Assembly (NCBI RefSeq): GCF_024385505.1
Contig: NZ_JANFLT010000002.1
Location: 434,001 to 498,000, forward strand
Direction: 5' to 3'
Origin: Arthrobacter zhaoxinii
Lineage (GTDB): Bacteria > Actinomycetota > Actinomycetes > Actinomycetales > Micrococcaceae
DNA: 64,000 nt
The notes beneath the pieces were generated by a model. It was not told the origin of the DNA. It did not search any database and was given only the letters and a program-made list of their open reading frames with translations. This document shows, piece by piece, positions 8,970 to 10,472 of the stretch (the stretch's first letter is position 1; each line of letters starts with the position of its first letter). The position numbers and the translations under genes were made by a program.

Positions 8970-9830
8970 ATGTCATATGGAGTGCCGGCCGAGGTGCCGG
9001 ATTCGCAGGTTCCCGTGTGTCCCCGCCATCCGGACCGGGTCAGCTACATCCGCTGCCAGCGCTGCGGGCGCCCGGCCTGCCCCGAATGCCAGAAGAATGC
9101 CGCCGTGGGTGTGCAGTGCATTGATTGCTTCAACCAGCAGCGCAAGGACCAGCCGACCTACCGCACCTCCTTTGGAGGCCGCGTCGCCGGCGATGGAAAA
9201 CCCGTGGTTACCATCACGATCATGGCTGTCTGTGCCGTCGCCTACGTCATTCAGCTGCTGCTGCCGGAATTCACGCGCACCTTCTTTTACGCCCCCGTAC
9301 TGACGGACTCCCAGCCTTGGCGGATGCTCACCTCGGCGTTCCTGCATTCCCAGGGCAGCCCCATTCACATTGCCTTCAACCTCTATGCCCTCTGGTTCCT
9401 GGGCAGCAGCCTGGAACCCCTGTTCGGCCGCGCCCGCTTCGCCCTGCTCTATCTGATTTCCGCAGTGGGGGGCTCCGTGGGCGTGATGTACCTCGGAGAG
9501 CCCGTCACAGCTGTGGTGGGGGCCTCCGGCGCTGTCTTCGGCCTCTTTGGTGCACTGTTCGTCGTGATCCGGCAGCGGCGCGGGGAACTGCGGTCCCTGC
9601 TGATCCTGCTGGCGGTGAACCTGGTTCTGGGGTTCGTAGTGCCCGGAATCGCCTGGCAGGCCCACGTAGGCGGTCTGCTGACCGGCGCGGCCTGTGCAGC
9701 CATTCTGGCGTATACCCCGAGGAGCAGGCACCGAACGGCCATCCAGTTCGCCGGACTGGCGGGGATTGTGCTGCTGCTTGTCGCGGCGGCGGTGCTCTGG
9801 CAGGCCCCCGTACGGATCATCCCGGGGTAA
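8970..9830 (+). CDS. Rhomboid family intramembrane serine protease
   Basis: A 286-aa membrane protease that cleaves transmembrane segments of other membrane proteins. The N-terminus is a cytoplasmic zinc-binding module of B-box type, with Cys17, His20, Cys29, Cys32, Cys37, Cys40, Cys50 and Cys53. Six or seven membrane helices follow from about residue 76. The catalytic serine is in GASGAVFGLFGAL and the partner histidine is in AHVGGLLTG; the HIAFNLYALWFLG segment matches the conserved HxxxN helix. The zinc module on the rhomboid is typical of actinobacterial members. Natural substrates cannot be inferred. The DnaA-box region follows downstream. Confidence 0.93.
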   Translation: MSYGVPAEVPDSQVPVCPRHPDRVSYIRCQRCGRPACPECQKNAAVGVQCIDCFNQQRKDQPTYRTSFGGRVAGDGKPVVTITIMAVCAVAYVIQLLLPEFTRTFFYAPVLTDSQPWRMLTSAFLHSQGSPIHIAFNLYALWFLGSSLEPLFGRARFALLYLISAVGGSVGVMYLGEPVTAVVGASGAVFGLFGALFVVIRQRRGELRSLLILLAVNLVLGFVVPGIAWQAHVGGLLTGAACAAILAYTPRSRHRTAIQFAGLAGIVLLLVAAAVLWQAPVRIIPG

Positions 9831-9911
9831 CCGGCCCTTCCCGAAGAAACTGTGCCCGCTGCTTCCCTGCAGCGGGCACAGGCGTTTAACGGCGCCCACA
9901 GCGCTGCATAG

Positions 9912-10129
9912 TTATCCACAGGGATACCCACAGTGTTAATAACCTACATGGTTGTAGTTTCCGGATCCGGAGCCCGATCCACAGGGTTATCCATAGGCTG
10001 GGAAGACTTACACACATGTAATTCCACAGCTGTGGATAACCTGCTTCCCTTTATTTGCAAGGAAGTTCGAGAAGTAACCCACAGAGTTACCCACACCTGT
10101 GGATAACTCCGTGCACAACCTGTGAACAA
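9912..10129. repeat. Cluster of DnaA boxes in a non-coding stretch
   Basis: The 393-nt gap between the rhomboid gene and crgA has no gene but is dense in DnaA-box 9-mers. Three are perfect TTATCCACA: 9912-9920 (+), 10031-10039 (-) and 10098-10106 (-). Two have one mismatch: TTATCCATA 9987-9995 and TTACCCACA 10087-10095. Weaker copies are TTACACACA 10008-10016, TAACCCACA 10075-10083, CGATCCACA 9975-9983, ATACCCACA 9924-9932 and, on the other strand, TTGTTCACA 10121-10129. The stretch is more A/T-rich than its surroundings. It may bind DnaA to titrate it or assist initiation; it is unlikely to be the main oriC, which should lie next to dnaA to the left. Confidence 0.75.
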
Positions 10130-10164: not shown

Positions 10165-10204
10165 AAAAAAGGCTTCCCGGTGCCGAAGACGGCACGGGGA
10201 AGCC
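10165..10204 (-). terminator. Rho-independent terminator of crgA
   Basis: On the minus strand a 14-bp stem with one mismatch (arms 10191-10204 and 10171-10184, 6-nt loop) is followed by six Ts (10170-10165). It lies 20 nt after the crgA stop. Confidence 0.85.
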
Positions 10205-10223
10205 TGCCCTGTATGCGGGTGTG

Positions 10224-10472
10224 TCAGCGCCAGCGCGTTGTCATCAGGAAGCCCACAATCGCGATGCCGAAGCCCACCAGGATGTTACTGGCACCGAAAG
10301 ACGGCACAGGGTACTGGCCCTGGGTGATGTAGTACGTAATGATCCACAGCAGGCCCAGAATCATCAGGCCGAACATCACCGGTTTGTACCAAACGGGGTT
10401 TTCCTTGGGAGCGGACACGGTTTTGGCCGGGGCAGGGCGGGAAGCCTTCTTGCGGGACTTGGACTCAGGCAC
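10224..10472 (-). CDS. crgA: Cell division protein CrgA
   Basis: An 82-aa protein with a basic, Lys/Pro-rich cytoplasmic N-terminus (about 30 residues) and two membrane helices (about 30-50 and 62-80) joined by a short periplasmic loop with GQYPVPSFG. The total length, the PVWYKPVMFG entry into helix 1 and the ending TTRW are typical of the CrgA (UPF0233) family. CrgA joins the divisome and recruits or stabilises PBP proteins and FtsQ/FtsI in actinobacteria. The GTG start follows GGAGGATC. It is divergent from the sortase gene and has its own terminator. Confidence 0.95.
   Translation of the reverse strand: MPESKSRKKASRPAPAKTVSAPKENPVWYKPVMFGLMILGLLWIITYYITQGQYPVPSFGASNILVGFGIAIVGFLMTTRWR

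Follow-up and report, generated by a model that had tools for sequence, protein, structure and literature searches.

The region between the rhomboid gene and crgA

The 64-kb stretch of DNA analysed here (the window) carries a cluster of DnaA boxes between a rhomboid protease gene and crgA, the elements of which are listed in Table 1. Since crgA is a minus-strand gene whose stop codon faces the cluster, the boxes lie 3′ and not 5′ of this gene and are not its promoter. A hairpin stands on either side of the cluster; the one next to crgA was spotted in the sequence and is absent from the list produced by the terminator scan.

The initial annotation had described three exact DnaA boxes (TTATCCACA), two boxes with one mismatch (TTATCCATA and TTACCCACA) and several weaker ones. 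All of these were recovered by a motif scan of the window, the weaker boxes being six with two mismatches. Three pairs of neighbouring boxes on the same strand (starting at 9912/9924, 9975/9987 and 10075/10087) have starts 12 bp apart, leaving a 3-bp gap; E. coli DnaA is reported to favour pairs of boxes spaced 2 or 3 bp (PMC11317965). The inverted boxes at 10087 and 10098 were also returned as a 15-pair hairpin (10080–10113) by the scan for terminator-like structures, yet they are DnaA boxes.

Table 1. Features between the rhomboid gene and crgA (window positions) and clusters of exact DnaA boxes on contig C2 of the same genome. Box offsets are counted from the start of the module's palindrome.
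Feature	Position	Strand	Description
Rhomboid protease gene (PF01694)	8970–9830	+	convergent with crgA
Hairpin	9850–9881		perfect 13-bp stem, terminator-like on the minus strand
Module B	9912–9959	−	palindrome and boxes at +17(+), +27(−) and +39(−)
Module B, box +39(−)	9912–9920	+	exact
Module B, box +27(−)	9924–9932		2 mismatches
Module B, box +17(+)	9934–9942		2 mismatches
Palindrome B, McdR-type	9942–9959		AACTACAACCATGTAGGT, 3 mismatches to the McdR motif
Module A	9975–10023	−	palindrome and boxes at +28(−) and +40(−)
Module A, box +40(−)	9975–9983		2 mismatches
Module A, box +28(−)	9987–9995	+	TTATCCATA, 1 mismatch
Palindrome A, McdR-type	10006–10023		AATTACATGTGTGTAAGT, 1 mismatch to the McdR motif, top score in the window
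Weak box	starts at 10008		2 mismatches
Box	10031–10039	−	exact; starts 16 bp ahead of palindrome A in crgA orientation
Third box group	10075–10106		three boxes
Third group, first box	starts at 10075		2 mismatches
Third group, second box	10087–10095		TTACCCACA, 1 mismatch
Third group, third box	10098–10106	−	exact
Weak box	10121–10129	−	TTGTTCACA, 2 mismatches
Inverted repeat	10170–10205		16-nt arms, 94% complementary, 4-nt loop; T run after it on the crgA strand
crgA (PF06781)	10224–10472	−	stop codon towards the cluster
rplI–dnaB cluster	C2, 383.5 kb		2 exact boxes
dnaA–dnaN cluster	C2, 430.4–430.6 kb		2 exact boxes
crgA-side cluster (window)	C2, 443.9–444.1 kb		3 exact boxes

With up to one mismatch allowed, 16 boxes are present in the window, while 4.06 are expected, and none of 100 shuffles attained this number. 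In the genome-wide count that had been proposed along with the annotation (3,506,218 bp in 12 contigs), the exact box was found 20 times and the reversed word 5 times; with up to one mismatch, the numbers were 260 and 162. As this excess is modest, it is the clustering and not the total number of boxes that is of interest. By arithmetic, about 1 × 10⁻⁵ triples of exact boxes as close as those in the window (3 of 20 inside 195 nt) are expected. The statement that three exact copies are well beyond chance was therefore right, while the frequency given for a 9-mer (once in 130 kb per strand) was not, the correct values being 262 kb per strand and 131 kb over both strands.

Seven of the 20 exact boxes fall into three clusters on contig C2, and the other 13 are single. 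Boxes with up to one mismatch number 2.29 per 100 nt in the crgA-side cluster, 1.30 at rplI–dnaB, 1.00 in the dnaA–dnaN oriC and 0.46 at rpmH–dnaA; the window cluster, located 13 kb from oriC, thus exceeds it and the other clusters in density. We conclude that this is a real cluster of DnaA boxes outside oriC, beyond what chance would produce.

The initial annotation had suggested that the cluster may tune initiation or form part of an extended origin. Its placement outside oriC was correct, and tuning of initiation may be as well; participation in an extended or second replication origin is, in our estimate, extremely improbable. A box density above that of oriC and a lower overall GC content (0.49 vs 0.57 for dnaA–dnaN) would be in keeping with an origin, and the GC skew changes sign at about 430–446 kb, a signal too noisy to separate the cluster from dnaA–dnaN. 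However, the canonical clusters of the oriC type, rpmH–dnaA and dnaA–dnaN, lie 13–15 kb off, and the window cluster is located in neither of these contexts; the 50-mer with the lowest GC content is found in dnaA–dnaN (0.36) and not in the cluster (0.40); and crgA is up to 177 kb away from dnaA in other genomes (9.3–177 kb in 32 genomes, with a median of 34 kb and a maximum of 4.04% of genome length, some of the lengths being rounded).

Outside the window, a second extra-oriC cluster with two exact boxes and four boxes with one mismatch is located between rplI and dnaB (G000:C2:383494–383738; L001:3495–3739). In a survey of 30 rplI–dnaB loci (one of them short), the 600 nt that follow the rplI match on its 3′ side contained a box in seven loci and at least two boxes in six, and none of the loci with boxes contained the palindrome described below with up to two mismatches. 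Being patchier and palindrome-less, the rplI–dnaB cluster was not considered the equal of the element at crgA.

Boxes and a palindrome 3′ of crgA in other genomes

Genomes were taken in draws of 158, 148 (the class set) and 61. CrgA was detected in 146 of the 148 class genomes, and 130 of these crgA loci were analysed, with 16 left out; two of the 130, which have a short 3′ side, were dropped from the 3′ counts. As the loci share ancestry, they do not count as independent. In 113 of 128 loci, the 300 nt following the crgA stop codon contained at least one box with up to one mismatch, and in 81 they contained at least two (class mean 1.97), 15 loci having none in this interval. The corresponding control values were 3/129 on the 5′ side, 5/130 inside crgA, 4/125 and 3/124 farther 3′, and 4/128 for the reversed box. 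By family, boxes were found in at least one member of 32 out of 35, the families without boxes 3′ of crgA being f51, f70 and f76. At 20 loci from other classes of the phylum, picked from the 70 genomes that gave a match in the 158-genome draw, the 400 nt 3′ of crgA contained boxes in 15 cases, a palindrome with up to one mismatch in 10 and both in 8, and neither boxes nor the palindrome were found on the 5′ side at any of the 20. The comparison with other genomes that had been proposed for this region thus finds the boxes kept 3′ of crgA in the majority of loci of the class and of the other classes.

The palindrome beside the boxes was first seen by side-by-side reading of the 3′ regions. An iterated matrix yielded the consensus AATTACACSSGTGTAATT. 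Scores above the threshold were reached by 92 of the 130 loci, by 2 of 127 controls from upstream and by 1 of 130 shuffled sequences. Since the matrix was trained on the same loci that it scores, a published motif was used as an independent probe (see below). In these 92 loci, box positions relative to the palindrome start are recurrent: 55 boxes are at +39 to +41(−), 25 at +30(+), 25 at +16/+17(+) and 19 at +26 to +28(−). When 93 loci belonging to 30 families were aligned with family weighting, conservation was confined to positions 0–49, with values near background outside, and C5, A6, T11 and G12 were invariant. In the class consensus, the 18-bp palindrome (positions 0–17) abuts a box-like sequence at +17(+). 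The next box stands at +27(−) or +30(+), another at +40(−), and the spacing throughout is fixed and near-helical.

We defined a complete module as a palindrome with up to three mismatches together with a last box, with up to two mismatches, at +39 to +41. Of the 130 loci, 88 carry such a module no more than 700 nt 3′ of crgA; 77 of these have it in the same orientation, 7 in the reversed one and 4 in both. Upstream of crgA, none of 130 has a module in either orientation. Among the 42 loci without a complete module are all 12 of family f4 and all 12 of family f62. By family, the palindrome with up to three mismatches occurs in 29 of 35; it was not found 3′ of crgA in f55, f73, f76 and the single counted f52 locus. 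All modules recognised in the family of the window share one orientation (50 family-level rows, in which some genomes appear twice). Modules in both orientations were observed 3′ of crgA in L171 (family f69), L146, L168 and L020; in L171, the boxes are flanked by two palindromes.

As can be seen from Table 1, the window contains two modules in tandem, 64 bp apart, plus extra boxes. The weak parts of this version are palindrome B, with its three mismatches, and the +40 box of module A, with two. A search of the third box group (10075–10106) for a palindrome with up to three mismatches to the motif found none. The cluster noticed initially is real. What had been overlooked is its build from duplicated modules and, within these, the palindromes of McdR type at a fixed distance from the boxes.

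Among 79 usable mycobacterial loci, the palindrome with up to one mismatch was present in 78, and 78 boxes were located at exactly +40(−). This set consists mostly of named records and goes back to 289 relatives, MAGs among them, of which the best 80 were kept; the assignment of family f5 to Mycobacteriaceae rests on it. One contig (CAMCWJ010000074.1, L326), titled as a Bifidobacterium breve MAG, encodes a CrgA of mycobacterial type with 87% identity to the query and probably comes from a misassigned or contaminated MAG.

Whole genomes were also scanned, without anchoring to crgA, with a composite pattern (an exact box, 20–24 nt plus 4, then ACAnnnnTGT). In the 148 genomes, 42 matches were retrieved in 40 genomes, and the reversed control gave 0. 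Within 2 kb of crgA were 38 of the 42, and 34 of these 38 were oriented as in the window. The four matches away from crgA are G071:C1:161174, G262:C1:10757, G208:C11:189979 and G208:C11:192538. G262, a genome of about 1.4 Mb, has its own crgA match at 1379775, and the two matches in G208, a genome of family f62, are 2.6 kb apart.

Two large families, f4 and f62, mostly keep the boxes without the palindrome, and McdR is encoded in all 12 of their members tested. In f4, which we infer to be a Streptomyces-like family, all 12 loci have two exact boxes 3′ of crgA and lack the McdR palindrome. The sequence TTGACGCCGGTGTGAC or a close variant was observed soon after the last box in 11 f4 loci (L038, L040, L043, L046, L077, L078, L081, L084, L085, L095 and L096); the sequence viewed for L039 stops ahead of this position.

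In the family of the window itself, some relatives have no boxes adjoining crgA. Inspection of 20 family loci with long flanks located the element 1.4–6.7 kb farther 3′ in 15, while it was absent in 4 and truncated in 1; 16 of the 20 had been picked since their short flank had no boxes, or only farther ones, near crgA, and 4 were newly taken in. One of the long-flank loci, L272, has boxes and a palindrome adjoining crgA as well. The displacement in relatives, together with the duplication in the window, indicates that the element is maintained for itself.

The McdR motif and the possible function of the element

The consensus AATTACACSSGTGTAATT equals, spacing included, the published motif of McdR (Rv1830, also known as ResR, of the MerR family), AATnACAnnnnTGTnATT, which was supported by EMSA and mutations at the whiB2 promoter (PMC9040748; also PMC10336103). 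When used as the independent probe with up to two mismatches, the published motif was found 3′ of crgA in 79 of 128 class loci, vs 0/129 on the 5′ side, 0/130 inside crgA, 2/125 and 0/124 farther 3′, and 0/128 for the reversed motif; 39 of 128 loci have no palindrome within three mismatches. In the window, the motif with its CA and TG core is matched by palindromes A and B. A CRP-like site (judged by half-site orientation) and the WhiA motif GACAC (T or C predominates at alignment position 3) fitted the palindrome more poorly than McdR.

A strict palindrome pattern retrieved further copies in most of 27 genomes. Inspection of 20 such copies by eye placed at least four (L181, L187, L189 and L190) just upstream of a WhiB-type gene and most others elsewhere. 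The sole strict match in the genome under study is the perfect palindrome ATTACACGCGTGTAAT (C6:436713–436728; L175:2001), located 474 nt before a WhiB-type cysteine motif (C6:437187); it is likely the counterpart of the published McdR operator at whiB2. This genome encodes an McdR orthologue on contig C5 (L220; MerR_1, E = 4.8e-15). An orthologue near a BFN-domain gene was found in 29 of 30 genomes, those of palindrome-less families included, with a helix-turn-helix that is nearly invariant by eye; in the thirtieth, G274, no McdR was found within its 1.5-kb flank. Since 29 of 30 genomes encode McdR, its presence cannot separate the lineages with the palindrome from those without. DIP-seq of McdR gave five peaks, and the crgA 3′ site is not among the three that the text of PMC9040748 names (whiB2, MSMEG_0833 and MSMEG_5468).

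The palindrome could instead be bound by another protein, either HigA2 or DnaA itself via two box-like halves. In vitro binding of HigA2 to the Rv0010c site has been reported from EMSA (PMC11205783), and Hicks et al. describe a recurrently mutated palindrome located 65 bp upstream of the Rv0010c start as two DnaA-box-like sequences (PMC7738170). We consider this quite unlikely: the consensus derived de novo coincides with the McdR motif down to the spacing, the palindrome recurs upstream of WhiB-type genes, McdR's tested target, both in some of the loci inspected by eye and in the genome under study, and McdR itself is nearly ubiquitous in the genomes surveyed.

In mycobacteria, DnaA is reported to bind the Rv0010c–Rv0011c region by IDAP-seq and EMSA, and the homologous region of M. 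smegmatis by ChIP-seq (PMC7738170). The same work lists this region among five highly enriched ones, the others being oriC, rpmH–dnaA, upstream of dnaB and Rv3843c–RVnc0040, and describes cells of the site mutants as longer, as in dnaA mutants; its authors saw no obvious correspondence of the site in other species.

The element could also serve transcriptional control of crgA or of its 3′ neighbour by DnaA, McdR or both. McdR is a transcription factor; the mycobacterial palindrome precedes the Rv0010c homologue, ending 66 bp before the ATG (as measured in the 20 loci out of 79 that contain the start string); and Rv0010c mRNA is reported to be up in a higA2 mutant (PMC11205783). Such a role is nevertheless very unlikely. 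The initial annotation had supposed that crgA, as the downstream gene, could be influenced, but in the window the element is 3′ of both convergent neighbours, between two hairpins. Among 24 chosen loci, 14 have a convergent rhomboid gene as 3′ neighbour, 4 have a convergent thiolase gene, and the remaining 6 have another gene or none that was identified (the two longest ORFs per locus were considered and 47 of 48 scanned, one overlong ORF being excluded, so that small genes may escape); this mostly convergent arrangement argues against a promoter role. In most long-flank relatives the copy is kilobases away from crgA, and expression of Rv0010c and Rv0011c is reported to be unchanged in dnaA mutants (PMC7738170). 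A crgA promoter in particular was ruled out by the wrong side, the convergent genes and the kilobase displacement.

Passive titration is a simpler possibility: boxes near the origin would sequester free DnaA and delay initiation, a role that has been proposed for clusters in Streptomyces, with the McdR sites being incidental or only displacing DnaA. The many boxes close to oriC, the two modules in the window and in some relatives, and the retention of boxes without the palindrome in f4 and f62 are all consistent with it. An origin-proximal region of high box density is reported to titrate DnaA in E. coli (PMC12371093), and repression of untimely initiation in B. subtilis and S. coelicolor has been attributed to clusters resembling datA (PMC5742627). 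However, a class mean of about two boxes is low for bulk titration, and the phasing to the palindrome is rigid, while a sink requires neither fixed spacing nor an adjoining operator. We therefore regard pure titration as unlikely.

The window cluster is best read, from sequence comparison, as a local enlarged form of a putative DnaA–McdR control element of about 50 bases that stands beside crgA, near oriC, in many actinobacteria. Taking together its architecture, conservation, position and motif identity, we consider that it is probably a DnaA-control element in which DnaA boxes are combined with an operator for the division and repair regulator McdR, with a build similar to that of DARS2 and datA. 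DnaA would assemble on the phased boxes, and an McdR dimer on the adjoining palindrome would shape the DnaA complex, as IHF and Fis do at DARS2 and datA. Binding of McdR may raise DnaA activity, coupling initiation to the McdR–WhiB2 division circuit, either by means of an activating complex of the DARS2 type or through relief of a DnaA sink; because of the rigid phasing, we favour the former. Overexpression of mcdR in M. smegmatis is reported to increase origin-proximal copy number (PMC9040748), which could also be a by-product of blocked division.

More tentatively, the element may represent an ancient actinobacterial replication checkpoint, i.e., a site of about 50 bp near oriC where McdR sets the amount of available active DnaA and initiation follows the McdR–WhiB2 circuit. 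If true, such a checkpoint would fill the role of DARS2 and datA with a different partner and would explain why mycobacterial findings on DnaA and on McdR/ResR converge. A DnaA site hitherto reported for mycobacteria alone becomes here a conserved, sharply bounded element, McdR becomes a candidate partner for a hitherto unexplained palindrome, which would link replication initiation to the McdR–WhiB2 circuit, and the 50-bp element offers a target for deletion or rephasing in laboratory strains of harmless actinobacteria.

Comparison with known systems

Clusters of DnaA boxes outside oriC have been described before. A search of the open-access literature found no prior description of the module as it occurs across the class, of its fixed geometry or of an McdR operator within it. 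The closest relation is with the Rv0010c–Rv0011c site of Hicks et al. 2020 (PMC7738170), which occupies the orthologous place 3′ of crgA (Rv0011c). The published palindrome, 65 bp from the start, and the one recognised here in mycobacterial loci, 66 bp from it, were matched by their distance. The published site is mycobacterial only, whereas the element described here is class-wide, with traces beyond, and has an McdR-type operator, rigid phasing and, in the window, a duplication.

In layout, the element resembles DARS2 and datA of E. coli, which are likewise non-coding clusters of DnaA boxes outside oriC with the site of a second DNA-binding protein at a defined spacing; the DARS core is reported to consist of DnaA boxes I–III (PMC5742627). 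Boxes in fixed geometry with a second protein's site are found here too. The difference is in the second site, which is for IHF or Fis in E. coli and matches a MerR-family division regulator at crgA.

With the clusters H69, H24 and D78 of Streptomyces coelicolor, the element shares a location that is origin-proximal and outside oriC. H69, a cosmid name, may presumably be the S. coelicolor crgA cluster. Deletion of D78 by Smulczyk-Krawczyszyn et al. in 2006 reportedly raised replication frequency. Unlike the module described above, the boxes 3′ of crgA in the presumably Streptomyces-like f4 stand without an McdR palindrome.

Finally, the operator of McdR/ResR at whiB2 (PMC9040748) has the identical motif, which also precedes a WhiB-type gene in the genome under study. 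At crgA, in contrast, DnaA boxes adjoin this motif, which does not stand at a promoter in the window.
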